A DNA stretch of 64,000 nucleotides, from contig JACTMO010000023.1 of assembly GCA_014584605.1 (NCBI GenBank), positions 1 through 64,000 of the forward strand, given 5' to 3'. The notes beneath the pieces were generated by a model. It made no database searches, was not told the DNA's origin, and saw only the letters and a list, made by a program, of their open reading frames with translations. A program made the translations under genes and the position numbers. The number at the start of each line of letters is the position of its first letter. Position 1 is the stretch's first letter. Of the stretch, positions 7,500-39,798 are shown piece by piece. The DNA is from Bacteroidota bacterium. Its GTDB lineage: Bacteria; Bacteroidota; Bacteroidia; Flavobacteriales_F; PHOS-HE28.

Positions 7500-7832
7500 T
7501 GCCCTGAACGGACCATGGTCGTACTTCCAAGGAGGCCATGTGATCACATTGCCTCCGTAGGTTTCGCGCAGTCGTCCCTGCCGTGCCTGCGAATCAGGTG
7601 TAGGTGGCGGGTCTGCATAGGTTCAAGGGTCGTGCTTGGTATGCGACAACTCAATAATGAACTTCAAGCTCTCAAGCCTGATCGCTCTTCAAGCTAGGCG
7701 TGGCCTGTGCGTGGCCCGCGTGAGCGATCGAGGCGGTTACCCCGCAGGCCCCTGCTCTGAGGGGCCGAGGAAAAGCGAAGCACCCGACCCGTGTGCTGGC
7801 TGGTGCGGTAGGTGATGGGTACACCCCCAAAT
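7500..7832. other. Intergenic, no gene seen
   Basis: Open frames here are short and have no family signal. A perfect 7-bp stem (GGCCCCT, loop GCTCTG, AGGGGCC) at 7747-7766 could be a terminator for the upstream gene or a small structured element, but no U-run follows. Confidence 0.4.
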
Positions 7833-7860
7833 ACACAAGGCCCCTTGCGGAGCCCTGTGT
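7833..7860 (-). terminator. clpB terminator hairpin
   Basis: On the minus strand a 9-bp stem (ACACAGGGC with GCCTTGTGT) and 10-base loop lie about 20 bases after the clpB stop. It is followed by UAUUUGGGGG. The same hairpin is found at 3770-3797. Confidence 0.7.
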
Positions 7861-7879
7861 TCATGCAGTACAGTTACGG

Positions 7880-25746: not shown

Positions 25747-25754
25747 TACCTTTG
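25747..25754 (+). promoter_or_regulatory. -7 box, TACCTTTG, for the polysaccharide/pigment cluster
   Basis: Exact TAnnTTTG, only 4 bases before the ATG at 25759. It probably drives a long transcript and implies leaderless initiation. Confidence 0.65.
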
Positions 25755-25758
25755 CCGC

Positions 25759-26619
25759 ATGGCGGCGCGCTGTGTGTTCTCGGTGGACGTCGAGGAATGG
25801 TTCCACATCCTGGACGTGCCCTCCACGCCGCCGCTCGAGGCGTGGGACCGGCAGGAGTCGCGCGTGGAGGCCTCGTTCCGTCGCATGCTCGATGTGTTCG
25901 CCGAGAAGCGGGTCCGCACCACGCTCTTCTTCCTGGGCTGGGTGGCCGAGCGCCACCCGCAGCTGGTGCGCGACGCCGCCGCCCTGGGCCACGAGATCGC
26001 CTCGCACGGCTATGCGCACGAACTGGTGTACAAGCACGACCGGCGGCATTTCACCGAGGATGTGCGCCGCGCCAAGGGCGTCATCGAGGCGGCGGCCGGG
26101 GTGCGGGTGCGCGGCTACCGGGCCCCGGGTTTCAGCGTGACGCGCCAGACCCCGTGGTTCTTCGAGGCGCTCGCGGAGACCGGCCATGCCTACGACAGCA
26201 GCATCTGGCCCGGCGATCGCAACCACGGCGGCTGGCCCGGCGCACAGCCCGTGCCGCATGTGGTGCCCACGGCGCTGGGCGACATCGTGGAGTTCCCCAT
26301 CAGCATGGGTCGTGTCTTCGGCCGCGACCTCTACTTCTTCGGCGGCGGCTACCTGCGCTTCTTCCCCTACCGGCTGATCCGCGACCGCGCGCGCGCCGTG
26401 CTGGAACAGGACCGGCCCGTGGTGTTCTACCTGCACCCCCGCGAAGTGGACCCCGAGCATCCCCGCCTGCCCATGAGCTGGAAGCGCCACTTCATGAGCT
26501 ACGTGAACCTCCACACCACCGAGCCCAAGATGCGCCGGCTGTTCGACGACCTGCCCATGACCACCTTCGGCGACCTGCTCGACGCCGGCGTGGCCCACCT
26601 CCCGCGACAGGTAGCATGA
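25759..26619 (+). CDS. Polysaccharide deacetylase (DUF3473 type)
   Basis: 286 residues. NodB-fold carbohydrate esterase: metal/catalytic motif SVDVEEWFHI near residue 10, second metal motif IASHGYAHE (about 80), RGYRAPGFSV (about 117), and the DUF3473-type end (FYLHPREVDPEHP, KRHFMSYVNLHTTEPKMRRL). It removes acetyl groups from N-acetylated exopolysaccharide, often in XrtA/PEP-CTERM-type clusters. First gene of the cluster; its stop overlaps the next start (ATGA). Confidence 0.92.
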   Translation: MAARCVFSVDVEEWFHILDVPSTPPLEAWDRQESRVEASFRRMLDVFAEKRVRTTLFFLGWVAERHPQLVRDAAALGHEIASHGYAHELVYKHDRRHFTEDVRRAKGVIEAAAGVRVRGYRAPGFSVTRQTPWFFEALAETGHAYDSSIWPGDRNHGGWPGAQPVPHVVPTALGDIVEFPISMGRVFGRDLYFFGGGYLRFFPYRLIRDRARAVLEQDRPVVFYLHPREVDPEHPRLPMSWKRHFMSYVNLHTTEPKMRRLFDDLPMTTFGDLLDAGVAHLPRQVA

Positions 26620-27713
26620 GCGCCCCCCGCAAGGTCCTCTTCCTGTACACCGAGCTGGCGCCTTATTTCCTGGCCGGCGTGGAACGGCTGGTGGGCGACC
26701 ACGGGGTGGAGGTCCACGTCGTGCGCTGGCCGGTGAACCGCGAGGCCCCTTTCGAGCTGCGCTTCGCCGACCGGGTGAAGGTGCACGCGCGCGACGCGTT
26801 CGACGATGCGGGGCTCCTGCGCCTCGTTCACGACATCGCACCGGACATCGCCTTCGCCAGCGGCTGGGTGGACAAGGGCTACCTGAAGGTGTGTCGCGCG
26901 CTGCGGCGGCGGGGCGTGCCCACGGTGATGTGCAGCGACACGGCCTGGCGCGGCGACGCCCGGCAATGGGCCGCAGTGGCCGCCGCGCAGCTCTGGATCA
27001 AGGGCACCTTCACGCATGCCTGGGTCACCGGGGAGCCCCAGGCCAACTACGCCCGCCACCTCGGCATCGCCGATGCCCGGGTGCGCACCGGCTTCTACAG
27101 CGCCGACACCGACCGTTTCCTCCCCTTGGGCGAGCGCCTGCTGCGGGAACGCAGCACCCGCTGGCCGCACCGCCTCCTTTGTGTGGCCCGCTACATCCCC
27201 ACCAAGGGGCATCAGCTGCTCTGCGAGGTGTTCGCCGGGCTCTGCGACGAGGGGCTGGCCGGCGACTGGGAATTGTGGATCGCAGGGACCGGGGAGCTGC
27301 TGGAACAGGTGAAGGCCTCGCCCGCCGGACGGCACCCGCGCATCAGGCACCTGGGCTTCGTGCAGGTGGAGGATATGCCCGGGGTGCTGGAACACTGCGG
27401 CGCCTTCGTGCTGCCCAGCACCTACGAGCCCTGGGGCGTGGTGGTGCACGAGCATGCCTGCGCGGGCCTGCCGTTGCTGTTGAGCAGTGCCGTGGGCGCG
27501 GGCGAACGCTTCCTGCGCGAGGGCCACAACGGCGTGCGCTTCGGCGCGGGCCGGGCGACGGACCTGCGCGAAGCCCTGTTGCGCGTGCTGCGGACCGACG
27601 ATGCCGCCCTGCATGCCATGGGCGCCAAGAGCCGCGAACTGGGCAGCCGTTGGACCCCGGCCGACTGGGCACGCACCGTGATGGACCTGATGCCTGCGCC
27701 GCGTGAGACCTAA
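26616..27713 (+). CDS. GT4-family glycosyltransferase
   Basis: 365 residues. Start MSAPRKVLFLYTELAPYFLAG. C-terminal GT-B donor-binding motifs: LLCVARYIPTKGHQLL, RHLGFVQVEDMP, VLPSTYEPWGVVVHEHACAG with the EX7E-type Glu pair, and GHNGVRFGAG. It transfers a sugar from a nucleotide donor to a surface polysaccharide intermediate at the cytoplasmic face. Coupled to the deacetylase by a 4-bp overlap and to the next gene by an 11-bp overlap. Confidence 0.88.
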   Translation: MSAPRKVLFLYTELAPYFLAGVERLVGDHGVEVHVVRWPVNREAPFELRFADRVKVHARDAFDDAGLLRLVHDIAPDIAFASGWVDKGYLKVCRALRRRGVPTVMCSDTAWRGDARQWAAVAAAQLWIKGTFTHAWVTGEPQANYARHLGIADARVRTGFYSADTDRFLPLGERLLRERSTRWPHRLLCVARYIPTKGHQLLCEVFAGLCDEGLAGDWELWIAGTGELLEQVKASPAGRHPRIRHLGFVQVEDMPGVLEHCGAFVLPSTYEPWGVVVHEHACAGLPLLLSSAVGAGERFLREGHNGVRFGAGRATDLREALLRVLRTDDAALHAMGAKSRELGSRWTPADWARTVMDLMPAPRET

Positions 27714-28842
27714 GGTGCTCGTGTTCATCGACTGGTACCTGCCGGGCTACAAGGCGGGCGGACCGGTGCGCAGCATGGCCAACCTGGTGGAACACCTGCG
27801 CGATCGGGTGGACCTGCACCTGGTGACCACCGACACCGACTACACCGAGGCCACACCCTACCCGGACGTCACGCCGGACCGGTGGACCGTGATGCCCGGG
27901 GGCGAAAAGGTCTGGTACGCCTCGCGCAACGGCGTGAACGCCGCCACCTGGCGGAAGCTGCTGGACCAGGAGGACTGGCGCACGGTGTACATCAACGGCC
28001 TGTACTCGCGCTGGTTCAGCGTGATGCCGCTGTGGCTGTTGAAAGGCTCGGTCCGGCATCGGGTGGTGGCCGTGCGCGGCATGCTGGCGGCGGGCATGAT
28101 GAAGCACGGGACCCTGAAGAAGCGCGCCTTCCTGGCGGGGATGCGGCTGCTCGGCAGTTACCGGGGCGTCACCTTCCAGGCCACCAACGCCGAGGAGGTG
28201 GAGGATGTGAAGCGCTGGATCGGAAAGGAGGTCGCGGTGAAGCTGGTGCCCAACCTGGGCCGGAAGCTCACGGCGACCGCACCACCGCTGCGTGCGAAAC
28301 AGCCCGGCGAGCTGCGCGTGCTGAGCGTGGCCCGCATCGCCGTGGAGAAGAACACGCTCTTCGCCATCGAGTGCCTGAAGCAGGTGCAGGGCCGCGTCAC
28401 CTTCGACCTGTACGGGCCCATCTACGACGAGGCTTACTGGGCGAAGTGCCGCGCGGCCATCGCGGAGCTCCCTCCCGGCATCACCGTGACGCACAAGGGC
28501 CCCGTGCCGCCCGAGGAGGTGCCGGAGCTGTTCGCGCACTACCACGCCCTGTTCATGCCCAGCCAGGGCGAGAACTTCGGGCACACGATGGTGGAGGCGC
28601 TGGCCACCGGCCTGCCGCTGGTGATCAGTGACCGCACCCCGTGGCGTGGCCTGTGCGAACTGAACGCTGGATGGGACCTACCGCTCGAGGAGCCTTCGTG
28701 CTTCTGGGAGGAACTGAACGACCTGGTGGCCTACGACCAGAATGACCTGGATGCCGTGTCACGCGGTGCGTTCGCGTTGGGCAGGCGATATTTGGACGAT
28801 CCCGCAACCGCCCAACGCACGCTGGACCTGCTGGTGCCATGA
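27703..28842 (+). CDS. GT4-family glycosyltransferase, GTG start
   Basis: 379 residues; the GTG at 27703 is the only start giving the expected first strand (MRPKVLVFIDWYLPGYKAGGP). GT-B motifs: RVLSVARIAVEKNTLF, THKGPVPPEEVPELF, MPSQGENFGHTMVEALATG (EX7E) and LVISDRTPWRGL. The N-terminal GG(P)VRS motif is typical of GT4 enzymes in exopolysaccharide clusters. Sugar specificity is unknown. It overlaps both neighbours, so it is part of one operon. Confidence 0.88.
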   Translation: MRPKVLVFIDWYLPGYKAGGPVRSMANLVEHLRDRVDLHLVTTDTDYTEATPYPDVTPDRWTVMPGGEKVWYASRNGVNAATWRKLLDQEDWRTVYINGLYSRWFSVMPLWLLKGSVRHRVVAVRGMLAAGMMKHGTLKKRAFLAGMRLLGSYRGVTFQATNAEEVEDVKRWIGKEVAVKLVPNLGRKLTATAPPLRAKQPGELRVLSVARIAVEKNTLFAIECLKQVQGRVTFDLYGPIYDEAYWAKCRAAIAELPPGITVTHKGPVPPEEVPELFAHYHALFMPSQGENFGHTMVEALATGLPLVISDRTPWRGLCELNAGWDLPLEEPSCFWEELNDLVAYDQNDLDAVSRGAFALGRRYLDDPATAQRTLDLLVP

Positions 28843-29399
28843 CCGACCGCAAGCGCGTCGACCTCAGCCGTTTCACCAACGCCGACTTCCCGAAGGGGGC
28901 GGGTGCGGTGAAGATGACGCTGTGGTACTTCACCAACGCGCTCTTCTTCCTGAACCCGCTGTTCCCGTTCCGCTCGCCCAAGCCCGCGCTGCTGCGGCTC
29001 TTCGGGGCACGGGTGGGGAAGGGGGTGGTGGTGCATCCCGGGGTGAACATCAAGTACCCGTGGAAGCTTACCATCGGCGACCACGTGTGGGTCGGGCAGC
29101 GCGCCTGGCTCGACAACATCGACCAGCTCATCATCCGGGACCATGTGGTGATCAGCCAGGGCGCCATGATCATCCAGGGCAGCCACAACTACAAGAAGGT
29201 CGATTACCCCACCCTCAGCGGTCCGGTGGTGCTGGAGGAAGGCAGCTGGGTGGGCGCCGGTGCCATGGTGATGCTCGGGGTGACCCTGAAGAGCCACAGC
29301 GTGCTGGCCGCCGGCAGCGTGGCCACGAAGGACCTGGAGCCGTACACGATCTACCAGGGGAATCCCGCCCAGCCGGTGCGTGAAAGGGTGATCGAGTAG
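28839..29399 (+). CDS. wcaF: WcaF-like acyltransferase (left-handed beta-helix)
   Basis: 186 residues. Hexapeptide repeats (VVVHPGVNIKYPWKLTIGDH, GAMIIQGSHNY, GAMVMLGVTLKSHSVLAAGS) and the end YTIYQGNPAQPVRERVI match colanic-acid acetyltransferase WcaF and relatives. It acetylates sugars of the surface polysaccharide using acetyl-CoA. ATGA overlap with the preceding glycosyltransferase. The symbol is by family; orthology to E. coli WcaF is not proven. Confidence 0.85.
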   Translation: MTDRKRVDLSRFTNADFPKGAGAVKMTLWYFTNALFFLNPLFPFRSPKPALLRLFGARVGKGVVVHPGVNIKYPWKLTIGDHVWVGQRAWLDNIDQLIIRDHVVISQGAMIIQGSHNYKKVDYPTLSGPVVLEEGSWVGAGAMVMLGVTLKSHSVLAAGSVATKDLEPYTIYQGNPAQPVRERVIE

Positions 29400-29465
29400 G
29401 TGCGAAAGCGGTCGGGGAGCAATAGGTCAAGGACATTTTCGTTGAGCGGGCTGGATCGTATCCCC

Positions 29466-29864
29466 ATGAACCGCCCGGCTCTGATGCTCACTTTGCCGGT
29501 TCTTGTCATCGCGTGCTATGCCGCGTTCGCTGCACCGCGTATCAGGATCGATGGTTTCTTAGGCGAGCCCTTCGAGCTTTTAGGGCAGACCGACACGCAG
29601 TATGCGGAGGACTACTCGCACCTGGCGTTCAAGCGGATTGAGGTTGGTATGACTGAACAGCAGGTACTGGCCATACTGGGTGAACCTCTGTACCGATGGA
29701 TGCCTTACGGTGGACGCAGCACGCGCAAGAGGTTCCCTGAGAAGGCCCATTTCGTTGGACTGGCCTATAGCAGAAGCCCAACGAGCAAGCACTATCGCCT
29801 TAGGCAGATCAACTTGGACAACGGTGTCGTCGCAGAGGTCAGAGGGTACTTCTATGTCGATTGA
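29466..29864 (+). CDS. BamE/SmpA-like small exported protein
   Basis: 132 residues from the ATG at 29466, which opens a hydrophobic segment (MNRPALMLTLPVLVIAC); Cys17 could be a lipidation site. RIEVGMTEQQVLAILGEPLY is the hallmark of the SmpA/OmlA/BamE-type alpha-beta fold. It sits between two polysaccharide genes with 66-bp and 45-bp gaps and has visibly lower GC and different codon use from both neighbours, suggesting later insertion. Role unknown; the main BamE function is not implied by fold alone. Confidence 0.7.
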   Translation: MNRPALMLTLPVLVIACYAAFAAPRIRIDGFLGEPFELLGQTDTQYAEDYSHLAFKRIEVGMTEQQVLAILGEPLYRWMPYGGRSTRKRFPEKAHFVGLAYSRSPTSKHYRLRQINLDNGVVAEVRGYFYVD

Positions 29865-29909
29865 GTCCCGGCGGTGTTGTGCCGCTGACATTGCGTTCTT
29901 TGCTGTGGG

Positions 29910-30689
29910 ATGTCAATACCCAACGGCGTGAAATTCTCCCTGATCACCGTGTGCTTCAAGGCCGGGGAGGAACTGGCCGAGACCGTGGCCAGCGTGCGTG
30001 CGCAGACCCATCCGGACATCGAGCACATCATCGTGGACGGCGCTTCCCCCGATGCGGCCACGCGGTCCGTGCTCAAGCGCCTCGACGATGGCCGGTCCGT
30101 TCTGATCAGCGAGCCCGACCGAGGCGTGTACGATGCCATGAACAAGGGCCTGGCCCGCGCCACCGGCGAGGTGGTCGGCTTCGTGAACGCCGGCGACCTG
30201 CTGGAGGCCCCCGGTGTGGTCGCCGCGCTCGCGACGGAGTTCGCCAGGGGCGATGCGGACGTGATCTACGGCGACGCCAACATGGTGGACCCGCACGACA
30301 TCCGGAAGCTGCGGCGGTTCTGGAAGGGGGGCGAATACCACCGCGACAACTTCCGCAAGGGATGGATGCCGCCGCACCTGGGCACCTACATCCGCCGCGA
30401 GGCTTACCAGCGGTTCGGCGGTTTCGACCTGCGATTCCGCATCGCGGCCGACTACGAACTGATGTTCCGCTTCCTGTATAAGCACCGGCTGCGGGCGCGC
30501 TACGTGCCGCTCACCATCGTGCGTTTCCGCCTGGGCGGGGCCAGCAACAAGAGCCTCGGCCACGTGTGGAAGGCCAACCGCGAAGTGCTGGAGGCCTGGC
30601 GTGCCAACGGCCTGAAGCCGCCGCCGCTGTTGGCGTTCCGCAAGCCCCTGCGCAAGCTGGCGCAATACATCCTACCTTCCGCCCCATGA
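29910..30689 (+). CDS. GT2-family glycosyltransferase (WcaE-like)
   Basis: 259 residues. KFSLITVCFKAGEELAETVASVRAQTH, EHIIVDGASPDAATRSVLK, SEPDRGVYDAMNKGLARATGEVVGFVNAGD (DxD-like region) and PPHLGTYIRREAYQRFGGFD are typical of GT2 enzymes close to colanic-acid WcaE. It adds a sugar to the growing polysaccharide repeat unit. Its last bases overlap the start of darA (ATGA), linking the polysaccharide and pigment blocks. Confidence 0.9.
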   Translation: MSIPNGVKFSLITVCFKAGEELAETVASVRAQTHPDIEHIIVDGASPDAATRSVLKRLDDGRSVLISEPDRGVYDAMNKGLARATGEVVGFVNAGDLLEAPGVVAALATEFARGDADVIYGDANMVDPHDIRKLRRFWKGGEYHRDNFRKGWMPPHLGTYIRREAYQRFGGFDLRFRIAADYELMFRFLYKHRLRARYVPLTIVRFRLGGASNKSLGHVWKANREVLEAWRANGLKPPPLLAFRKPLRKLAQYILPSAP

Positions 30690-31591
30690 AGCGCGTGCTC
30701 GTCATCCACTATTCGCAGACCGGCCAGCTCACCGTACTGTTGGACCGCATCGTGGCGCCGCTGCGCGAGGCGGGGATCGCCGTGGACCACCTGCCGCTGC
30801 GCCCCGCCACGCCCTATCCCTTCCCGTGGTCGAGGGTCAGCTTCTTCAACTGCTTTCCCGAGGCGGTGGGCCACGACCCCGTGCCGTTGGAGCCGCTGGC
30901 GCTGGCGCCGGAAGGGCCGTACGACCTGGTGGTGCTGGGCTACACCATCTGGTTCCTCAACCCGAGCATCCCCATGACCAGCTTCCTCAAGCACCCGGAG
31001 GCCGCGCGCTACCTGGCGGACCGGCCGGTGGTGACGGTGGTGGGCGCGCGCAACATGTGGGTGCTGGCCCAGGAGCACATGCGGCGGTCGGTGGCGGCCC
31101 TGCGCGGGCGCCTGGTGGGCCATGTCACCGTGGTGGACCGCAGCCCCAACCTGGTGAGCGTCATCACCATCATCCGTTGGATGTTCCACGGTCGCCGCGA
31201 TCCCTTCCTGATCTTCCCGGCCGCGGGGATCCGGGCCGCCGACATGGACGCCTCGGCCCGTTTCGGGACGGTGATGGCCCGGCACCTGGCCACCGGCGAC
31301 CTCGACGGGCTGAACCCCGCGCTGCGCCGGGAGGGCTCCATCCACATCGTGCCGAGCCTGCTGATGCTGGAGAAGCGTGCCACCTTCCTGTTCGGCAAGT
31401 ACCGGCGGTACATCCTGGCCAAGGCCGACCGCGACCCGGCCAGCCGCCTGCGACGGGTGAAGGTCTTCAGCGTGGTGCTCACCATCGGCGTCTTCATCCT
31501 GGGGCCCATCACCAGCCTCACCACGGCGCTGCTCTCCCTGGTGAAGCGCCGGGCGCTCAAGGCCGAGGTGGAGCGCCTGTCCACCTACTGA
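30686..31591 (+). CDS. darA: DarA-like dialkylresorcinol condensing enzyme
   Basis: 301 residues. The N-terminal flavodoxin-like half (MKRVLVIHYSQTGQLTVLLD, FPWSRVSFFNCFPEAV, DLVVLGYTIWFLNPSIPMTS, VTVVGARNMWVLAQE) and C-terminal hydrophobic segment (VFSVVLTIGVFILGPITSL) match, as I remember them, DarA proteins of flavobacterial flexirubin clusters. DarA works with DarB to form the dialkylresorcinol part of flexirubin-type pigments from two beta-keto/acyl chains. It overlaps the GT2 gene upstream by 4 bp; darB follows after a gap with its own promoter-like box. Confidence 0.88.
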   Translation: MKRVLVIHYSQTGQLTVLLDRIVAPLREAGIAVDHLPLRPATPYPFPWSRVSFFNCFPEAVGHDPVPLEPLALAPEGPYDLVVLGYTIWFLNPSIPMTSFLKHPEAARYLADRPVVTVVGARNMWVLAQEHMRRSVAALRGRLVGHVTVVDRSPNLVSVITIIRWMFHGRRDPFLIFPAAGIRAADMDASARFGTVMARHLATGDLDGLNPALRREGSIHIVPSLLMLEKRATFLFGKYRRYILAKADRDPASRLRRVKVFSVVLTIGVFILGPITSLTTALLSLVKRRALKAEVERLSTY

Positions 31592-31643
31592 ACTGCCGGA
31601 CCCCGGCGCCCGCCCGGTATTTGGGGTAGGTGCCCCAAGCGGT

Positions 31644-31651
31644 TACTTTTG
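31644..31651 (+). promoter_or_regulatory. -7 box, TACTTTTG, before darB
   Basis: Fits TAnnTTTG exactly in its fixed positions. It lies in the 95-base darA-darB gap, 35 bases before the proposed TTG start, so darB and the genes after it may be expressed apart from the polysaccharide genes. Confidence 0.5.
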
Positions 31652-31686
31652 CCGGTCGCATCGAAAAAAGGGGAGCGCTCAAGACC

Positions 31687-32817
31687 TTGCACGACGTTTA
31701 CATCACCCGGGTGTCCGGGTTCCTGCCGAATACACCGGTCTCCAACGACGAGATGACGGATCACCTGGGCATGGTGGACGGGAAGCCGTCGCGCGCCCAG
31801 CGCATCGTTCTGCGCAACAACGGCATCGTACAGCGGTACTACGCGCTGGACCGTCAGGGGCGGATCACCCACACCAACGCCCAACTGGTGGCCCGGGCGG
31901 TGGAGGGCCTGGCCGGCGACGGCCTTGCGGTGAGCGACTTGGAAGTGCTGGCCTGCGGCACCAGCAGCCCGGACCAGTTCCTGCCCTCCCACGCCTCGCA
32001 GGTGCACGGGGAGCTCGGCCATCCCCTGGAGATCGTGAGCACCGCTGGCGCCTGTTGCACGGGCATGCACGCCCTGAAGTACGGCTACATGAGCGTGGCC
32101 ACCGGCCTGTCGCGCAACGCCGTGGCCACCGGCAGCGAGCTGGTGAGCCCCATGATGCGCGCCGGCAACTTCGAGAGCGAGACCGAGCGCTATCGCCAGC
32201 TGGAGCAGGACCCCATCGTCGGCTTCGAGAAGGAGTTCCTGCGCTGGATGCTGAGCGACGGCGCGGCGGCCGTGCTGATGGAACCCGCACCACGGGGACC
32301 GCTGAGCCTCCGCATGGAGTGGGTGGTGAGCCGCTCCTTCGCCCATGAGCTGGATGTGTGCATGTACAGCGGGGGCGACAAGGATGAGGAAGGCCGCTAC
32401 CTGGGGTGGAAGCAGTTCCCCCCGCAGGACCTGGCCGGGCGCGCGCTCTTCACCATGAAGCAGGACGTGAAACTGCTGGGCCGCAACATCGTGCCCGTGG
32501 GCGTGCGTTTCCTGCGCGAGACCTTTGAGCATCACGGCCTCGACCCCGCTTCGATCGACCACATGCTCGTGCACCTCAGCAGCATGTTCTTCCGGGACAG
32601 GGTGCATGATGAGATGGTGGCCCAGGGCATCGGGGTTCCGATGGACAAGTGGTACATCAACCTGCCCCGGGTGGGCAATGTGGGCTCGGCCTCCATCTTC
32701 CTGCAGTTGCGCGACCTGCTGGCCGAGGGCCATGTGCGCAAGGGGCAGCGTGTGCTGCTGATGGTGCCCGAGAGCGCCCGCTTCAGCTACGCCTTCGCCC
32801 TGTTCACCGCAGTGTGA
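31687..32817 (+). CDS. darB: DarB-like beta-ketoacyl synthase III
   Basis: 376 residues from a TTG at 31687, giving the family's usual beginning (HDVYITRVSGFLPNTPVSND); a GTG at 31630 lies upstream of the -7 box and is less likely. Thiolase-fold KAS III: active Cys about 123-124 (STAGACCTGMHALKYG), His in DHMLVHLSSMFF, Asn in LPRVGNVGSASIF. DarB condenses acyl chains for the dialkylresorcinol moiety with DarA. It forms the start of the pigment/export block. Confidence 0.88.
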   Translation: MHDVYITRVSGFLPNTPVSNDEMTDHLGMVDGKPSRAQRIVLRNNGIVQRYYALDRQGRITHTNAQLVARAVEGLAGDGLAVSDLEVLACGTSSPDQFLPSHASQVHGELGHPLEIVSTAGACCTGMHALKYGYMSVATGLSRNAVATGSELVSPMMRAGNFESETERYRQLEQDPIVGFEKEFLRWMLSDGAAAVLMEPAPRGPLSLRMEWVVSRSFAHELDVCMYSGGDKDEEGRYLGWKQFPPQDLAGRALFTMKQDVKLLGRNIVPVGVRFLRETFEHHGLDPASIDHMLVHLSSMFFRDRVHDEMVAQGIGVPMDKWYINLPRVGNVGSASIFLQLRDLLAEGHVRKGQRVLLMVPESARFSYAFALFTAV

Positions 32818-32841
32818 CCCCCCCGCCGTCCGGTGCTGGAG

Positions 32842-32849
32842 TATCTTCG
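32842..32849 (+). promoter_or_regulatory. Possible -7 box, TATCTTCG
   Basis: In the 85-base gap after darB, 53 bases before the start at 32903. Confidence 0.35.
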
Positions 32850-32902
32850 CAGTCCGCTCCCCCGGGAAGCTGCAGCAGCGCAGGGCACCGGGGCCCATGG
32901 CC

Positions 32903-33304
32903 ATGAAAAAGGAGGAAGTGCCCCAGGATGACGCCAACCTGCTGGAAGGCAAGTTCAAGGTGGTGAAATACGCCCTGAACGAGGACGGCGAGTTCGAGAA
33001 GGTGCCCAGCGTGGGCTGGGAGCCCGAGAACGTGGCCCTGCGCCAGGCCTGGGAGGTGGTCAACGAGCGGGTGGAGGCCGCCCGGCAGCAGGTGCTCCGG
33101 GGCGAACGCAGCCCCCTGGCCTACCACATGGCCCGCAACATGATGGAGGCCGATCTGCTGGCCCGGCATGTGGACCTGCCCGCCCGCCGGGTGAAGCGCC
33201 ACCTGGAGCCCTCGGGTTTCAGCGAGCTCGATCAGGCCCTGCTGGAGCGCTATGCCCAGGCGCTCCAAGTGACCGTGGACGAGCTGAAGCAGGTGCCCCG
33301 ATGA
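32903..33304 (+). CDS. Small conserved protein of flexirubin clusters
   Basis: 133 residues from the ATG at 32903 (MKKEEVPQDDANLLEG); an ATG two codons earlier is equally possible. Contains a WEPENVALRQAWEVVNERVEAARQ segment and a C-terminal helical part (RVKRHLEPSGFSEL, LERYAQALQVTVDELKQV) reminiscent of XRE-type helix-turn-helix ends. I recall similar proteins at the same place in Flavobacterium flexirubin clusters; their function is not established. It overlaps the BtrH gene by 4 bp. Confidence 0.75.
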   Translation: MKKEEVPQDDANLLEGKFKVVKYALNEDGEFEKVPSVGWEPENVALRQAWEVVNERVEAARQQVLRGERSPLAYHMARNMMEADLLARHVDLPARRVKRHLEPSGFSELDQALLERYAQALQVTVDELKQVPR

Positions 33305-34323
33305 GCCAGCGCGACCTTGTGATCCCCTTCGATCACCAGCAGAGCGCCCACTGCGAAACAGGGGTGATCAGCAACCTGATGCGTTTCCACGGGCTGCCGG
33401 TGAGCGAGCCCATGGCCTTCGGCATCGGCTCGGGGCTGTTCTACAGCCACATGCCCTTCCTGAAGCTCAACGGCATCCCGGTGACCAGCTACCGGATCCT
33501 GCCCGGGCACATCTTCAAGCGCTTCGCCCGCAACGTGGGCGTGGGCATCAAGCGCATGAAGTTCCGCGAGCCGCTGGCCGCCATGGCCGAGATGGACCGC
33601 GTGCTGGACCAGGGCCTTCCGGTGGGCATGCTCACCAGCGTGTTCTACCTGCCCTACCTGCCCAAGGCGTTCCGCTTCCACTTCAACGCGCACAACATCG
33701 TGGTCTTCGGTCGCGAGGGCGACGAGTACCTGGTGAGCGACCCGGTGATGGACGGCACCACGCGCATCCACCGCACGGCGTTGATGCGGGCGCGCTTCGC
33801 CAAGGGCATGCCCAACACCAGCGGCCGCATGTACTTCCCCACCCACGTGCCCAGCGATGCCGACCTGCGCGCCGCCGCGCTCAAGGGCCTGCGGCGCACG
33901 GCCCGCGACATGAGCACCACCCCGCTGCCCATGTTCGGCACCAAGGGCATCGGCTACCTGGCCGGCAAGCTCCGCCATTACGAGCGCAGGATGGGCGAGA
34001 AGGATGCACGGCTGGCCCTGGGCAACCTGATCCGCATGCAGGAGGAGATCGGTACCGGCGGTGCCGGCTTCCGCTTCATCTTCGCCGCCTTCCTGATGGA
34101 GACGGCCAAGCTGTTGAACGCCTCCGTGCTGCGCGAGAAGGCCCTGGAGATGTCCCGCATCGGTGATCAGTGGCGCGATTTCGCCTACGAAGCCGGGCGC
34201 CTGTGCAAGGGGCGCGCCGAGAGCCACATCACCTACGACCACCTGGCCGAAAAGCTCCTCGAGATCGGTCGCCAGGAGACCGCCTTCTTCAAGCAGCTCC
34301 ACCAGCTCGCCCGGCAGCTATGA
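33301..34323 (+). CDS. BtrH N-terminal-domain protein
   Basis: 340 residues. The N-terminal FDHQQSAHCETGVISNLMRFHG carries the Cys of BtrH-type papain-like acyltransferases. The middle (FNAHNIVVFGREGDEYLVSDPVMDG) supplies the matching His/Asp region, and the C-terminal part is a helical DUF4872-like domain. BtrH moves an acyl group from a carrier protein to its acceptor; in flexirubin clusters it may perform the ester-forming step (inference). Embedded with 4-bp overlaps on both sides. Confidence 0.85.
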   Translation: MSQRDLVIPFDHQQSAHCETGVISNLMRFHGLPVSEPMAFGIGSGLFYSHMPFLKLNGIPVTSYRILPGHIFKRFARNVGVGIKRMKFREPLAAMAEMDRVLDQGLPVGMLTSVFYLPYLPKAFRFHFNAHNIVVFGREGDEYLVSDPVMDGTTRIHRTALMRARFAKGMPNTSGRMYFPTHVPSDADLRAAALKGLRRTARDMSTTPLPMFGTKGIGYLAGKLRHYERRMGEKDARLALGNLIRMQEEIGTGGAGFRFIFAAFLMETAKLLNASVLREKALEMSRIGDQWRDFAYEAGRLCKGRAESHITYDHLAEKLLEIGRQETAFFKQLHQLARQL

Positions 34324-35060
34324 CCGCGCCGGACATCCGGGTGGAGGGCCTGGTGAAGCGCTATGGGCACCGCGCCCCCCCTGCGGTGGACGGCATGGAC
34401 CTGGAGGTGCGCCCCGGCGAGTTCCTCGGCCTGCTGGGTCCCAACGGTGCCGGCAAGACCACCCTCATCGGCATCCTCACCGGCGTGCTGGCCCCCACGG
34501 CGGGCAAGGCGCTGGTGCACGGCATGGACGTGGTGAAGGAGCGCCACAGGGTGCATCGCCTCATCGGCCTGGTGCCGCAGGACATCGCCCTCTACGACAC
34601 GCTCACCGCCTGGGAGAACCTGCGCTACTTCGGCCGGTTGCACGGCCTGCGGCGCGGGCCCCTGGACCAGCGCGCCGAAGTCCTGTTGGAGCGCACCGGC
34701 CTGCGGGACCGCGCCCACGAGCAGGTGCGGGGCTGGAGCGGCGGCATGCAGCGACGCCTCAACATCGTGGCCGCCGTGTTGCACGCACCCCCGATCATCT
34801 TCCTGGACGAGCCCACCGTGGGCATCGACGTCCAGAGCCGGGCCGCCATCCGCGAACTGCTCCAGGAGATCAATGCCGAAGGCACCACCGTGCTGTACAC
34901 CGGCCACCATCTGGAAGAGGCTGAGATGCTGTGCTCACGGGTGGTGGTGATGGACCACGGGCGCCGGGTGGGCGAGGTGGCCGACATGCAGCGCGGCGAG
35001 GGCCGCGAACGGCTGGAGGACCTGTTCCTCCGCCTCACCGGGCGCGCCCTGCGCGATTGA
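34320..35060 (+). CDS. ABC transporter ATP-binding protein
   Basis: 246 residues. Walker A LLGPNGAGKTTLIG (about 38-51), Q-loop GLVPQDIALYD, signature RGWSGGMQRRLNI, Walker B IIFLDEPTVGID, H-loop LYTGHHLEEAE. This is the DrrA/NodI-type exporter subfamily. With the permease just downstream it would form an inner-membrane exporter, probably for the pigment or its precursor. Start overlaps the previous stop (ATGA). Confidence 0.93.
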   Translation: MTAPDIRVEGLVKRYGHRAPPAVDGMDLEVRPGEFLGLLGPNGAGKTTLIGILTGVLAPTAGKALVHGMDVVKERHRVHRLIGLVPQDIALYDTLTAWENLRYFGRLHGLRRGPLDQRAEVLLERTGLRDRAHEQVRGWSGGMQRRLNIVAAVLHAPPIIFLDEPTVGIDVQSRAAIRELLQEINAEGTTVLYTGHHLEEAEMLCSRVVVMDHGRRVGEVADMQRGEGRERLEDLFLRLTGRALRD

Positions 35061-35063
35061 CCC

Positions 35064-36350
35064 ATGCTCCAACGCATCCGCGCCCACGCCCACAAGGAAC
35101 TGCTTCTGCTGCTGCGGGACCGCACCGGCCTGCTGCTGGTGTTCGCCATGCCGCTGCTGTTGGTGACCGTGATGGCCGTGGTGCAGGACGCCCCCTTCCG
35201 GGATTTCAGCGACAGGCAGCTGCGCGTGCTTTACAAGGACCTGGACGACGGGCCCGTGGGCGCGGCCATCCGGCAGGGACTGGAGGCCACCGGCAGTTTC
35301 ACCCTCACCGATGGGCGTGACCTCACGGACGCCGAGCTCCGCGACCAGGTGCGCAGCGGTCGGCATCAGGTGGGCGTGCTGGTGCCCGCCAACGCCAGCG
35401 AGGTGGTCGCCGCCGGTTCGGCCCACGCCATGGCCCTGCTCTTCAACCCCCTCACCGGGGACAGCACGGCGACGACCGCACCGGACAGCTCCCGCGTATG
35501 GATGGTCGTGGACCCCACGGTCAAACACATGTTCCGCGACCTGGTGCACGGCAGCCTGGTGCGCGTGCTGGCGGGCATCAGCTCCGAGCGGCTGCTGGCC
35601 GACATGCGCGTGCGGATCGAGGCCCTGACCGGCAACAGCCTGCCCGCCCTCGACCTGCGGCGCCCCTTCGTGGGGGTGGAGCAGCACCTGGCGGCCGGCG
35701 AGCTCCACGGCGATCTGGTGGCCACCGACTCCACGGCCCACAACGTGCCCGCCTGGACCATCTTCGCCATGTTCTTCACCGTGGTGCTGCTGGCCGGCAA
35801 CATGGTGAAGGAGCGGACCTCCGGATGCATGGTGCGCCTGCTCACCATGCCCGGGGGCACGGCCGAACGGATCACCGGTCGCATCGCCGCCTACCTGCTG
35901 GTCTGCCTGGCCCAGCTGGCGTTGTTGCTCGCCGCCGGGCTCTGGCTCCTGCCCCTGCTGGGCTTGCAGGCGTTGGACCTCGGAGCGCCGGATGCGCTGC
36001 CCCTGCTCCTGGCCGCCGCCCTTACCATCGGTCTGGCGGCCACGGCCTTCGGGACCTTCATCGGTTCGGTTTGCCGCACCCAGCAGCAGTCGGCCATCCT
36101 GGGCAGCACGGCCGTGGTGCTCCTCAGCGCCATCGGAGGCATCTGGGTGCCGCTGTACATCATGCCCCGGGCCATGCAGGCCATCGGGCGTCTCTCGCCG
36201 TTGCACTGGAGCATGGAGGCCTTCAACACCGTGATCCTTCGGCAGGGCGGCCTGCTGGAGCTGGCGGCCCACCTGGTGCCGCTGCTCCTCTTCGCCGCAG
36301 TGTGCCTGCTTTTGTCCATCATGGCCGAACGGGTCGTTTCTTCGCGTTGA
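35064..36350 (+). CDS. ABC-2 type exporter permease
   Basis: 428 residues. TM1 (GLLLVFAMPLLLVTVMAVV), a large periplasmic domain (about 50-225), then five helices (WTIFAMFFTVVLLAGNMV, AAYLLVCLAQLALLLAAGLWL, LLLAAALTIGLAATAFGTFI, AVVLLSAIGGIWVPLYIM, LLLFAAVCLLLSIM). The ABC-2/YhgE-like layout and the LSPLHWSMEAFN motif are typical. It pairs with the ATPase 3 bases upstream. Confidence 0.9.
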   Translation: MLQRIRAHAHKELLLLLRDRTGLLLVFAMPLLLVTVMAVVQDAPFRDFSDRQLRVLYKDLDDGPVGAAIRQGLEATGSFTLTDGRDLTDAELRDQVRSGRHQVGVLVPANASEVVAAGSAHAMALLFNPLTGDSTATTAPDSSRVWMVVDPTVKHMFRDLVHGSLVRVLAGISSERLLADMRVRIEALTGNSLPALDLRRPFVGVEQHLAAGELHGDLVATDSTAHNVPAWTIFAMFFTVVLLAGNMVKERTSGCMVRLLTMPGGTAERITGRIAAYLLVCLAQLALLLAAGLWLLPLLGLQALDLGAPDALPLLLAAALTIGLAATAFGTFIGSVCRTQQQSAILGSTAVVLLSAIGGIWVPLYIMPRAMQAIGRLSPLHWSMEAFNTVILRQGGLLELAAHLVPLLLFAAVCLLLSIMAERVVSSR

Positions 36351-36352
36351 CC

Positions 36353-37570
36353 ATGAGCGACCGCGTGGTGATCACCGGCATGGGCGTGATCAGCGCCCTG
36401 GGCGTCAACGTGGAGGAGAATCTGCGTGCGCTGCTCGAGGAACGTTCGGGCATCGGCGACATCACCATCCTGCCCACCCGGCACCGGGGTGTCATCCCCG
36501 TGGCCGAGGTAGCGCTGGACGACGACGCCCTCGGCGCCCTGGCCGCGCCGCGCAGCCAGCGCAGCTGGACGCGTACCGCCCTGCTGGGTCTCTGTGCCGC
36601 CAAGGAGGCCCTGGCCCAGGCCGGCATCGACCCCGCCGCGGCGCGTACCGCCTTCATCTCCGCCACCACCGCAGGCGGTATCGACAAGACGGAGCCCGTG
36701 TACGACCAGTTCTACCTGCCGGAGATCCCCGATGAGGTCGCCCAGTACCTGGGCACGCACGACCCCGGCGACCACGCCCAGCGCATCGCGGCCGAACTGG
36801 GCTTCAACGACCTGGTGACCACCATCAGCACCGCGTGCTCCAGCAGCGCCAACGCCTTGAAGCTCGGCGACCGCCTGCTGCGCCACGGCCTCACCGATGT
36901 GGCCGTGGTGGGAGGCACCGATGCCTTGTGCAAGTTCACCGTCAACGGCTTCAACTCGCTCATGATCCTGGACCGCGAGCCCTGCCGCCCCTTCGACCGC
37001 GACCGGGCCGGGCTCAACCTGGGCGAGGCGGCGGCCTACCTGGTGCTGGAGACCGAGGCCCATGCGCGGGCGCGCGGCGCCGCGGTGCTCGCCGTGGTGA
37101 GCGGCCATGCCAACACCAACGAGGCCTTCCACGCCACCGCCTCTTCGCCCGATGGCACCGGGGCCTACGAGGCCATGCGGCAGGCCCTGGCCATGGCGCA
37201 GCTCGCTCCGGAGGACATCAGCTACATCAACGTGCATGGCACCGGCACCCTGAACAACGACGCCTCGGAGGGCATCGCGCTCACCCGCCTGTTCGGCAGT
37301 GCCGTGCCACCGTTCAGCAGCACCAAGTCGTTCACCGGACATACCCTCGGCGCTGCGGGCGCGGTGGAGGCGGTGTATTCGGTGCTGGCCATCCGCAACG
37401 AGGTGCACTTCGCCAACCTGCGGTGGCGCACACCGCTGGCGGAGGCCGCCCTGGTGCCCGTGGTCCGCACGCAGCGCGGCGCCCGGGTGCGCCATGTGCT
37501 CAGCAGTTCCTTCGGCTTCGGCGGCAACAACACCAGCCTGGTGCTCAGTGCACCGGTCCAGCAGGGATGA
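36353..37570 (+). CDS. Beta-ketoacyl-ACP synthase (FabB/FabF type)
   Basis: 405 residues from the ATG at 36353. Complete Cys-His-His triad: Cys162 (STACSSSANALK), His295 (INVHGTGTLNND), His330 (STKSFTGHTLGAAG), with Lys325. It elongates an acyl or aryl-polyene chain on a carrier protein. In flexirubin and aryl polyene clusters such a synthase works as a heterodimer with a chain-length-factor-like partner, which fits the next gene. ATGA overlap with that gene. Confidence 0.93.
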   Translation: MSDRVVITGMGVISALGVNVEENLRALLEERSGIGDITILPTRHRGVIPVAEVALDDDALGALAAPRSQRSWTRTALLGLCAAKEALAQAGIDPAAARTAFISATTAGGIDKTEPVYDQFYLPEIPDEVAQYLGTHDPGDHAQRIAAELGFNDLVTTISTACSSSANALKLGDRLLRHGLTDVAVVGGTDALCKFTVNGFNSLMILDREPCRPFDRDRAGLNLGEAAAYLVLETEAHARARGAAVLAVVSGHANTNEAFHATASSPDGTGAYEAMRQALAMAQLAPEDISYINVHGTGTLNNDASEGIALTRLFGSAVPPFSSTKSFTGHTLGAAGAVEAVYSVLAIRNEVHFANLRWRTPLAEAALVPVVRTQRGARVRHVLSSSFGFGGNNTSLVLSAPVQQG

Positions 37571-38685
37571 AGCGGCCGGTGTACATCCGCGAGGCCTCGG
37601 CCATCGGACCGCAGCCGGTGTTCGATACCGACCGCCTGGAACGGGTGGAGGCCTACACGGGTCATCCGCTCCGGTCCATCGTGCCGGCCCTGCGCCGCTA
37701 TGTGGACCCCGTGCGCGGCCGTCGCATGGAGAAGGTGGCCCGCATCGGGCTGGGCGCCGCGCTGAACGCCCTGGACCGGGCGGGAGGGGCCTTGCCGGAG
37801 GCCATCATCGTAGGCACCGGACTGGGGTGCATGGAGAGCACCGAGCGTTTTTTCGTGCCCCTGCTCCACAACAACGAGGACGTGCCCAACCCCACGGCCT
37901 TCATTCAAAGCACGCATAACAACGTCGCCGGGCAGATCGCCCTTGCCACCAACTGCACCGGCTACAACTTCACCTATCTGCACCGCGGCATCTCCTTCAC
38001 CAGCGCCCTGCTCGACGGTTGGATGCAGGTGGGCCTGGAGGGCAGGGGCACGGTGCTGGTGGGCGGGGCCGAATCGATCACGCCCGACTACTATACGGTG
38101 CAGCGCCGAAGCGGCATCTGGAAGCAGCACGACGTGCCCAACCTCGAAGTGCTGAAGGCCACCGACGGCGGGGCGCTGTGCGGGGAGGGCGCCGCCTTCT
38201 TCGTGCTGGGCGACGGCCCGGGCCCGGGTCCTGCGGTACGCGTGGTCGATGTGGACATCAGCTTCCGCGGCGGACCGGGCTCACTGCGCGACCGGGTGCA
38301 TGCCTTCCTGGACCGCCATGGGCTGAGCGCCGACGCGATCGATCTGCTGATGATCGGTCGCAATGGCGACGGGCCACAGGACACGGCCTACGCACCGGTG
38401 GAGACCGATCTGCCGCTGGCCACCCATGCGGCCTTCAAGCATCTCTGTGGTGAGTTCCATACCGCCAATGCGTTCGGCCTCTGGTTGCTGTGGTCGGGCT
38501 TGCGCACCGGCCATCTGCCGGGCGAAGCCGTGCTGCACCGGGGCGCGCGGTCCAACATGCGTTGGGGCCTGTTGGTGGACCATTTCCAGCGCAAGGACCA
38601 CAGCCTGGTGCTGCTGGAACGTTGCGGGCCCGAGCACCCCGACGCGCAGGCCCTGCCGTCCGGTTGCGCCGATCAGCTCCGCTGA
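37567..38685 (+). CDS. Ketosynthase-like partner with altered active site
   Basis: 372 residues. Thiolase-fold ketosynthase N-terminal domain (VARIGLGAALNALDRAG, IIVGTGLGCMESTERFF, IQSTHNNVAGQIAL). The nucleophile position reads ATNCTGYN (Cys130) rather than ACSSS. The first catalytic His region reads MIGRNGDGPQD instead of VHGTGT. The second His seems kept (CGEFHTANAFGL). This loss suggests a chain-length-factor-like or otherwise specialised subunit of the preceding synthase (inference). Last gene of the cluster; the gene at 38758-39798 converges on it. Confidence 0.82.
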   Translation: MKRPVYIREASAIGPQPVFDTDRLERVEAYTGHPLRSIVPALRRYVDPVRGRRMEKVARIGLGAALNALDRAGGALPEAIIVGTGLGCMESTERFFVPLLHNNEDVPNPTAFIQSTHNNVAGQIALATNCTGYNFTYLHRGISFTSALLDGWMQVGLEGRGTVLVGGAESITPDYYTVQRRSGIWKQHDVPNLEVLKATDGGALCGEGAAFFVLGDGPGPGPAVRVVDVDISFRGGPGSLRDRVHAFLDRHGLSADAIDLLMIGRNGDGPQDTAYAPVETDLPLATHAAFKHLCGEFHTANAFGLWLLWSGLRTGHLPGEAVLHRGARSNMRWGLLVDHFQRKDHSLVLLERCGPEHPDAQALPSGCADQLR

Positions 38686-38757: not shown

Positions 38758-39798
38758 TCAGCGCTGCACCACGAACGGGCGCTCGTCCACCCGCCTGGCG
38801 TCCACGGTGCGAAGGGCATAGGTGCCGGCGGGCCAGCGGCTCACATCGATCTCCTGGGTGCGCTGCGTCTTCACGTGCCCCCAAGCGATCGCCCGGCCGG
38901 CCGCGTCGATCACGGCCCAGGTGGCAGGCTCCGAACCCGGCCACGCGAAGCGGACCGTGTGGGTGGCGGGGTTGGGCGCGACCATCACCTCGGTGGGGTC
39001 CTTCAGGTCATCGATGCCCGTGCTGATCTCGAAGGGTTCAGAGGGCAGCTGGCAGGGCAGGCCGTAGTCCACGAACACCGTGTAGGTGCCCGGGCCCCCC
39101 ATGGTGATGCACGGCGTGTTGCCAACGATGGGCTGCCAGTTCATGTACCACTGGTAGCTGATGCCCGCTGGGCTGGCGCACAGGTCGGCCCCGTTGAGGG
39201 TGATGACCGGCTGCGCGACCGGGGTGAACGCCACTTGGATGGTGACGCCCAGCTGCATGAGGAAGTTCGGACAGATGGCCGGTGCGCCGCTCACCGAATA
39301 CGCCCCGTTCTCCGTCACCGCCAGCACCGGGCCGTTGGCGCCCGGGATCGGCTGTCCACCGTTGGTCCATTGGATGTTCGTGTCGTAGGGCGGCATCAGC
39401 CTCAGCAGCAGGGTGTCGCCTTCGCAGTAGAGCAGTTCTCCGTTCGGCCCCGTGCCGTAGGTGGTATCGCCTTCGTGCATCACATACGGTAGCAGGAAGA
39501 CCCAGCCGTCCACCAGCACGGGTGGTGACATCTCCGTGCAACCTTCCAGGGTGCATTCCACCGTGAAGCTCGATCCACCATCGGTGTTGGCGTTCACCAT
39601 GTGGCCCTGCTGGACCGCGCCGGGTATCGGCTGGCCGTCCTTGTACCACTGGTAGCTGTCGTAGGGCTGGGTCATCAACACCTCCGACGCGTTCGGACAA
39701 AGCAGCACGGGATCCGGTTGGATGCTGGGATCGAAGGGGCACTGCGCCCGGAGGGATAAGATGGTGATCGAAGCGGCGAGGGTGAAGGCTGTACGCAT
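38758..39798 (-). CDS. Secreted Ig-like protein with T9SS sorting domain
   Basis: 346 residues. Signal peptide MRTAFTLAASITILSLRAQ. Three Ig/PKD-like repeats with the pattern YQWYKDGQPIPGA, IQWTNGGQPIPGA, YQWYMNWQPIVGN. The last about 75 residues (VMVAPNPATHTVRFAW, WAVIDAAGRAIAWG, RWPAGTYALRTVDARR) are a T9SS type A sorting domain. Extracellular or surface-attached; ligand unknown. 39799-40049 downstream shows no gene. Confidence 0.88.
   Translation of the reverse strand: MRTAFTLAASITILSLRAQCPFDPSIQPDPVLLCPNASEVLMTQPYDSYQWYKDGQPIPGAVQQGHMVNANTDGGSSFTVECTLEGCTEMSPPVLVDGWVFLLPYVMHEGDTTYGTGPNGELLYCEGDTLLLRLMPPYDTNIQWTNGGQPIPGANGPVLAVTENGAYSVSGAPAICPNFLMQLGVTIQVAFTPVAQPVITLNGADLCASPAGISYQWYMNWQPIVGNTPCITMGGPGTYTVFVDYGLPCQLPSEPFEISTGIDDLKDPTEVMVAPNPATHTVRFAWPGSEPATWAVIDAAGRAIAWGHVKTQRTQEIDVSRWPAGTYALRTVDARRVDERPFVVQR

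Follow-up and report, generated by a model that had tools for sequence, protein, structure and literature searches.

A set of pigment-type genes that begins within the last gene of a surface-glycan operon raises the question of whether it specifies a product of its own, perhaps tied to the neighbouring sugars, or one part of a larger pathway. In the window, that is, the whole 64,000-nucleotide stretch of Bacteroidota DNA analysed here, the segment at 30686-38685 is best read, with a probability of about 0.88, as encoding the dialkylresorcinol (DAR) half of a flexirubin-type pathway, with the genes for the aryl-polyene half at a second locus, on contig C52. The gene order and coordinates given by an earlier sequence-only reading held on re-examination. 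Its inventory of DarA, DarB, a BtrH protein, an ABC exporter and two ketosynthase-like proteins was also right, but it had overlooked the DarG-family gene at 32897-33304. The dar segment and its boundary consist of the following features.

30686-31591, + strand: DarA, predicted dialkylresorcinol aromatase, identified through homologues adjoining DarB in other Bacteroidota
31620-31651, + strand: Bacteroidota-type promoter motif TTTG-N20-TACTTTTG, 5' of darB, the sole match in the 64-kb window
31687-32817, + strand: DarB, ketosynthase/cyclase (NF005293, 503 bits, cut-off 450; NF053539, 520.8 bits, cut-off 550)
32897-33304, + strand: DarG-family protein (NF053536, 145.2 bits, cut-off 70)
33301-34323, + strand: DarH, BtrH-related acyltransferase (NF053550, 433 bits, cut-off 300; PF14399 and PF16169)
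34320-35060, + strand: ABC exporter ATPase, DrrA-like (PF00005; TIGR01188, 253.5 bits, cut-off 312.45)
35064-36350, + strand: ABC-2 permease (PF12698, 99.9 bits)
36353-37570, + strand: ketosynthase with catalytic Cys (STACSSS; PF00109/PF02801)
37567-38685, + strand: chain-length-factor-like partner, last gene of the dar operon (PF00109, 29.2 bits), with Gly in the catalytic column and without the catalytic Cys
38758-39798, - strand: T9SS-sorted protein bounding the dar segment (TIGR04183, 27.5 bits, cut-off 23)

The two proteins that would build the resorcinol ring were recognised in different ways. DarB exceeded the cut-off of the StlD/DarB subfamily model, fell under that of the DarB exception model, and matched the StlD structure 5gk0 at E 3.8e-102. 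DarA has no Pfam or NCBIfam match and was assigned by homology and synteny, its homologues beside DarB being 24-41% identical (nearly all 31-41%, and 36% in Chitinophaga pinensis); DarA is annotated as a DAR aromatase in Table 1 of PMC3949708. Heterologous expression of the corresponding genes of C. pinensis and Azoarcus is reported to have yielded a DAR. Searches of the PDB with the DarA and DarH sequences returned nothing useful. The start of DarB is most likely TTG 31687 rather than GTG 31630, at which the open reading frame opens, because the GTG codon lies within the promoter motif and the match to the family sets in at residue 22 of the longer frame.

An ACP, a ketoreductase, a dehydratase and an ammonia-lyase had been reported as lacking here, and none was found among the called and scanned genes between 23568 and 41504; to list an aromatase as lacking too is misleading, since DarA itself carries the annotation of DAR aromatase. 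An ACP precedes the ketosynthase in 46 of 59 other dar loci and is absent from the dar locus of the window. The proposal that the pathway is split across loci, and the suggestion to search the genome for the rest of it, both proved sound, as the "missing" genes lie in the same genome at about 44-65 kb of contig C52. This second locus encodes FlxY, FlxJ, the ammonia-lyase FlxA, FlxB, ketosynthases, two ACPs, a FabZ-like dehydratase-like protein, an exporter and LolA2, as well as a thioesterase and an acyltransferase. Both members of the starter pair, a tyrosine ammonia-lyase (FlxA, 693 bits, cut-off 700) and a ligase for a 4-coumaroyl starter (FlxY, 476 bits, cut-off 520), score below their cut-offs with the FlxA and FlxY models as best matches, and FlxJ is likewise below (469 bits, cut-off 560). 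The type II FAS-like polyene set comprises FlxB, which exceeds its cut-off (377 bits against 340), several ketosynthases, the two ACPs and a FabZ-like protein of 128 aa with a weak match (31 bits against 155). The members of the transport-associated set (LolA, exporter, LPLAT, deacetylase and GT) are likewise all encoded on C52, with LolA2 at 99.5 bits (cut-off 125). The dar genes occupy 30.7-38.7 kb of a 73.7-kb contig (C49) and the flx genes 43.7-65.0 kb of the 65.2 kb of C52, so that at least about 30 kb separates the two whatever the contig order.

The existence of a large flx cluster on C52 might suggest that this cluster is the complete one and that the dar genes of the window are stray paralogues, an outcome that the sequence-only reading had named as its refutation. 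We consider this extremely improbable and rejected it on copy number: DarA and DarH each have one match in the genome, in the window, and DarB has one full match there plus one weak, partial match (E 3.4e-4), such as most dar-negative genomes yield as well. No dar gene, including darA and darB, was found in the C52 stretch scanned, and the assembly is 99.9% complete, although C52 stops 0.2 kb past the last flx gene.

The two halves are also distributed together. DarH was found in 12 of the 45 genomes compared within the genus, and FlxA in exactly those 12, with a probability of 3.5e-11 if genomes are taken as independent; FlxA presence was scored at E 1e-100, and in none of the 45 does it pass the NCBIfam cut-off. 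When 40 of these genomes are placed on an rpoB tree, the co-occurrence involves at least 7 changes, and on well-supported branches it comes down to four pairs (sign test, p 0.125), that is, to few independent events. It is therefore very unlikely that the product is a simpler, free resorcinol lipid, whether or not it is joined to the glycan of the upstream operon: this genome carries a polyene locus, and FlxA accompanies dar in 12 of 12 dar-positive genomes.

Whether the glycan itself belongs to the product can be judged from the upstream operon, which spans 25759-30689 and runs into darA.

25747-25754, + strand: TACCTTTG, possible -7 box of a Bacteroidota-type promoter, 4 nt 5' of the deacetylase ATG
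25759-26619, + strand: XrtA-type polysaccharide deacetylase (TIGR03006, 283.4 bits, cut-off 276.2)
26616-27713, + strand: GT4 glycosyltransferase (PF13692/PF00534), overlapping the preceding gene by 4 bp
27703-28842, + strand: GT4 glycosyltransferase (PF00534)
28839-29399, + strand: WcaF-family acetyltransferase (NF007797, 208.2 bits, cut-off 192)
29466-29864, + strand: small protein with a weak BamE-domain match (PF04355, 24.4 bits, cut-off 23.2), its start taken from the sequence
29910-30689, + strand: GT2 glycosyltransferase, final gene of the glycan operon (top NCBIfam match WcaE, TIGR04009, 78.9 bits, far below the cut-off of 369.2)

The joint between the operons is genuine: the GT2 TGA ends at 30689 and the DarA ATG begins at 30686, giving a 4-bp ATGA overlap. 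Such a joint with GT2 is found in eight of the 12 dar-positive genomes, and six of these eight loci, the window counted, share the 4-bp overlap, the other two having gaps of 2 and 11 bp. This recurrence speaks for a glycan-linked lipid, as does the slightly higher frequency of the deacetylase where dar is present (9/12, against 13/33 dar-negative genomes; Fisher p 0.047 ignoring relatedness). The deacetylase was chosen as glycan marker since GT2 homologues occur in 44 of the 45 genomes at E 1e-20 and are uninformative alone. However, the same marker is thus present in 13 genomes that lack dar and was not found in three that have it, one of which is only 79% complete, and where the two members of a pair differ in dar they hardly ever differ in the glycan trait as well (0.1 of 4 pairs on the rpoB tree). 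Across the 45 genomes, the deacetylase counts do not identify the glycan module as required by dar or co-inherited with it.

Location points the same way. Eight of the 12 dar-positive genomes have the dar operon behind the glycan operon, two have it next to flx genes and two elsewhere. The dar operon follows FlxY-FlxJ in L097, whereas in L098, where as in L096 and L101 the neighbours were named from sequence starts only, a MATE-like gene separates it from C45-FlxY. In L101 dar sits among what appear, from those starts, to be other surface-polysaccharide genes, which can again be counted in favour of a glycan link. Conversely, two dar-negative relatives (L106 and L122) have a homologue of the T9SS gene (49-50% identical) directly adjoining the glycan GT2, the dar segment being absent between them. 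The module was not seen in the fetched stretches, many of them short, of 79 DarH loci from other lineages, apart from one GT2 match on the opposite strand (L048). Since the glycan-adjacent loci do not form one clade in the dar and flx trees, any of the locations could be ancestral, and the glycan site may either have acquired dar or have lost it. Presence/absence and site comparison thus led us to reject the glycan-linked lipid as the main reading, and the adjacent surface-sugar genes are in all likelihood bystanders.

The earlier view that the two operons are translationally joined applies to GT2 and darA but does not extend to darB and the genes after it, which have a Bacteroidota-type motif of their own. 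A sigma-70 promoter scan gave no sites; it used the E. coli consensus, which is not expected to suit Bacteroidota, and TTTG/TANNTTTG was therefore searched instead. The full motif upstream of darB has one match in the window against 0.07 expected, with 7 of 100 shuffles containing one. It is not exceptional window-wide, as with TTG and a local shuffle there is one match against 0.475 expected, and TANNTTTG occurs 7 times against 7.3; the argument for a darB promoter accordingly comes from position and conservation. The -7 box is found in 8 of 11 darA-darB spacers of the genus, compared with at most 3 in 5000 shuffles, and the -33 and -7 boxes occur jointly in 6 of the 11. Terminator-like sites numbered five, the same as in shuffles (5.1). 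At the head of the glycan operon, TANNTTTG lies within 20 nt upstream of the deacetylase ATG in 8 of the 19 loci compared (of 22), including the dar-negative L106 and L108, and no -33 box was found at the scanned spacing. As 8 of the 11 darA-darB spacers carry the motif, perhaps only darA is co-read with the glycan genes and transcription from darB onward would start at its own promoter, which also weighs against a glycan-linked lipid. One could go further and propose that darA is wired to the glycan promoter, with darB onward separate, so that resorcinol aromatisation and pigment are tuned to surface-glycan synthesis. We regard this as rather improbable; if true, two outer-surface products would share a regulatory link, and 8 of the 12 dar-positive species in the genus would have retained it.

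The dar genes of the window, then, probably make the dialkylresorcinol half of a flexirubin, an orange pigment common among bacteria. In the proposed pathway, FlxA would deaminate tyrosine to 4-coumarate, FlxY would activate it, and the type II FAS-like set of C52 (ketosynthases, FlxB, dehydratase and ACPs) would elongate it to the polyene. In parallel, DarB is predicted to join two fatty-acid-derived chains into a ring, which DarA would aromatise to the resorcinol. DarH belongs to an acyltransferase family and is a candidate for forming the ester between polyene and resorcinol. The ketosynthase/chain-length-factor-like pair of the window would take its carrier protein from C52, while transfer of the product to the outer membrane is predicted to involve the ABC pair of the window and, from C52, LolA2 and the MMPL exporter. 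The glycan operon would be independent of the dar operon, which happens to lie downstream of it, with darA readable along with the glycan genes.

FlxA, FlxY, FlxJ, DarB (521/550 bits) and the DarG-family protein against the flexirubin-specific model NF053545 (147.9 bits, cut-off 170) all fall under their NCBIfam cut-offs, which marks the lineage as diverged, and its product could differ from a classical flexirubin. These scores are one reason to consider a flexirubin-like but chemically distinct aryl-polyene-DAR ester, in which a second ketosynthase/chain-length-factor-like pair sets another chain length. The other is that this genome has two such pairs (36353-38685, and 15055-17057 of L084, in the flx locus; ketosynthases 52% and partners 37% identical), against one within 21 kb in the nine single-locus clusters inspected. 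Nevertheless, this alternative is somewhat unlikely, as candidates are present for the reaction types that flexirubin needs, excerpts of PMC3992019 list five putative ketosynthases in the C. pinensis flx locus alone, and the dar locus of C. pinensis YS-16 (L017) has the same pair, so that a classical flexirubin producer has additional ketosynthases too.

The flexirubin-type reading points to such pigments in a group examined here as sequence only. It shows that a cluster seemingly incomplete within one window can be completed elsewhere in the same genome, and it provides a within-genus case of half a pathway that swaps neighbours (glycan operon, flx genes, others) without losing its tie to the other half. 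It also cautions against taking "partial" pigment clusters, or neighbouring glycan genes, for new chemistry.

Comparison with known systems places the locus among these split pathways. Listings of the open-licence literature showed no prior report of a glycan-adjacent dar operon. The single-locus clusters of Flavobacteriaceae (for example Kriegella, L040, and Bizionia, L072) contain homologous genes with both dar and flx blocks, but their dar genes lie inside flx (LPLAT-darA...ABC-TE) and they have one ketosynthase/chain-length-factor-like pair. The arcuflavin system of Azoarcus sp. BH72, according to excerpts of PMC3949708, also has a dar operon with aromatase, cyclase, BtrH-like protein, ABC transporter and ketosynthase, and its physically unlinked dar and arc clusters cooperate; it differs in that its polyene starter derives from chorismate (XanB2 type), not tyrosine, and in that its dar locus has an ACP (darC). 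Closest is C. pinensis, whose YS-16 dar order, A-B-G-H-ABC-ABC-(ACP)-KS-KS, is that of the window, although the window lacks the ACP before the ketosynthase and has its dar operon behind a glycan operon. In C. pinensis, as here, the DAR and polyene genes lie at separate loci (dar, Cpin_6850-6851; flx, Cpin_1853-1877; excerpts of PMC3992019), and a split flexirubin-type pathway is thus of a known kind, already published for that species.

The flexirubin-type pathway of this genome is split across loci, an arrangement of a kind already known. Its dialkylresorcinol (dar) genes lie in the window, on contig C49 (73,715 bp; genome 3.74 Mb, 89 contigs, 99.91% complete), where all genes of 25759-38685 are on the plus strand:

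25759-30689, +: glycan operon; in order, XrtA-type deacetylase, two GT4, WcaF acetyltransferase, small BamE-like gene, GT2
30686-30689, +: ATGA, the end of GT2 and the start of DarA
30686-38685, +: pigment genes; in order, DarA, DarB, DarG-family protein, DarH (BtrH type), ABC ATPase, ABC permease, ketosynthase, ketosynthase-like protein
38758-39798, -: T9SS gene bounding the dar segment

The sequence-only reading had this gene content and the 4-bp GT2-darA overlap right but overlooked the DarG-family gene. The last pigment gene encodes Gly in place of the catalytic Cys, and its product is therefore chain-length-factor-like (CLF-like). A genome search for the pathway genes noted earlier as missing found the aryl-polyene (flx) genes in a block on contig C52, where genes were called by a purpose-written script:

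C52, other strand: FlxY, FlxJ, FAD enzyme, MMPL exporter with acyltransferase- and methyltransferase-like regions
C52, further genes: FlxA (the lyase), FlxB, ketosynthases, two ACPs, LPLAT, thioesterase, CLF-like protein
C52, rest: deacetylase, LolA2, FabZ-like protein, GT2

This block stops 0.2 kb short of the contig end (65,175). The genome search gave two aromatic amino acid lyases, one on C52 and the second on C55, single matches for DarA and DarH, and for DarB one full match and one weak partial match (3.4e-4). Thus, the proposal of a split pathway is borne out. Because several proteins score under their NCBIfam cut-offs (FlxA 693/700, FlxY 476/520, FlxJ 469/560, LolA2 99.5/125, DarB 521/550), we call the pathway flexirubin-type rather than proven flexirubin. 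Each locus carries a ketosynthase/CLF-like pair (window 36353-38685; 15055-17057 of L084, the flx stretch), paralogous at 52% and 37% identity; nine single-locus clusters inspected have one such pair each within 21 kb.

DarH occurs in 12 of the 45 genus genomes, 11 of them over cut-off, and FlxA, at an analyst-set threshold of E <= 1e-100, also in 12 (none over the curated cut-off). The two sets are identical, with a probability of 3.5e-11 if genomes are assumed independent. DarB proper is present in 11 of the 12; in the twelfth, G014, dar is in pieces, on contigs that break off at loci L105 and L111. Because the genomes are related, presence was mapped on an rpoB phylogeny covering 40 of them, among which are 11 of the 12 with dar. 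It excludes G025, G026 and G028, in which rpoB is not matched at E 1e-50, as well as G001 and G036, where rpoB is fragmented. The trait changes at least 7 times on this tree, and since only 4 independent pairs fall on well-supported branches, p is 0.125, which is not significant.

Of the 12 genomes with dar, 8 have it behind the glycan GT2 (window, L095, L099, L100, L102, L103, L104 and L111, the last with no WcaF match), and 6 of these 8 loci have the 4-bp overlap. Elsewhere, dar follows FlxY-FlxJ (L097) or a small ribosomal-protein-like gene (L096), diverges from a MATE-like gene and C45-FlxY (L098), or sits amid other polysaccharide-like genes (L101); the MATE-like, ribosomal-protein-like and polysaccharide-like neighbours are named from sequence starts. 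In G005 (L102, oriented 7481-8635), an opposite-strand 384-aa gene lies between WcaF and GT2, at the position of the window's BamE-like gene. In G041, GT4b and WcaF are separated by an inserted gene for a PIN-domain protein (PF01850; L103 10910-11284, minus strand); the Azoarcus dar operon also contains genes for a PilT-domain and a prevent-host-death protein (PMC3949708).

A deacetylase orthologue (E <= 1e-40) is found in 22 of the 45 genomes, 9 of the 12 with dar and 13 of the 33 without (Fisher p 0.047, relatedness ignored), and on the rpoB tree the glycan trait almost never differs between pairs differing in dar. This frequency in dar-negative genomes, together with FlxA accompanying DarH throughout, argues against the suggested attachment of a resorcinol lipid to the glycan, which is not supported. 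Ten of the 13 dar-negative genomes have a contiguous deacetylase-to-GT2 module (GT2 cut by the contig end in one), in two the contig ends before reaching GT2, and G012 has deacetylase and GT genes on separate contigs. In dar-negative G011 (L106) and G012 (L122), a homologue of the window's T9SS gene (49-50% identity) directly follows GT2 with a 4-bp convergent overlap; a dar-less version of the site therefore exists, compatible with either gain or loss of dar here. Among others, L107, L108 and L112 have a large gene between GT2 and the T9SS homologue. In these three, a gene for a protein of about 939-975 aa, presumably M16-peptidase-like by its HYLEH motif, is downstream of the glycan operon; in L109, L117 and L119 it is upstream of the deacetylase.

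TTTG-N17-22-TANNTTTG has its sole match in the 64 kb at 31620-31651, between darA and darB (expectation 0.07; 7 of 100 shuffles contain one), which would place the DarB start downstream, at TTG 31687. In Flavobacterium psychrophilum, TANNTTTG is the sigma-A -7 consensus (PMC9723704). Within the genus, 8 of 11 spacers between darA and darB contain it (maximum 3 in 5000 shuffles), 5 of the 8 being from close relatives, with a -33 element at the scanned spacing in 6 of 11; the spacers of L096, L097 and L101 lack the box. A possible -7 box, TACCTTTG, lies 4 nt upstream of the deacetylase ATG (window 25747-25759, TTTG then 4 nt), so near that the glycan transcript would have almost no leader. Of the 22 deacetylase loci, 19 were compared, and TANNTTTG precedes the gene in 8 of these, both with and without dar. 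Boxes before darB and the deacetylase suggest two probable transcription units, one running from the glycan genes through darA and the other starting at darB. Of the translational joining proposed earlier, the GT2-darA overlap stands, but darB onward probably forms a separate unit, judging by motifs only.

Beyond the genus, 79 loci were compared (L004-L082, from the best 80 of 584 relatives; L003 was set aside since its contig equals G041's dar contig in length), of which 59 have DarA and/or DarB besides DarH. For the 47 full-length loci with DarA/DarB, the stretch compared holds two or more flx genes in 27 cases and none in 20; stand-alone dar loci are therefore common in this sample. FlxA is over cut-off in 15 of 16 genomes picked by the analyst from the 80, the exception being that of L012. 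In the remaining 20 of the 79 loci, the stretch, truncated in 12 cases, shows DarH but neither DarA nor DarB; some, such as L030 and L057, have a DarG-DarH pair alone. Outside Bacteroidota, L062 and L080, from Desulfobulbaceae and Desulforhopalus MAGs, are DarG-DarH-ABC sets.

The remaining interest lies in half a pathway relocated within one genus and in the possibility that darA expression is tied to the glycan operon. Chitinophaga pinensis YS-16 has the same dar gene order as the window but an extra ACP, and dar and flx are reported to lie at separate loci in C. pinensis (PMC3992019). In Azoarcus, the dar operon is reported to contain an aromatase, a cyclase, a BtrH-like protein and an ABC transporter, and physically unlinked clusters are both required for pigment (PMC3949708).
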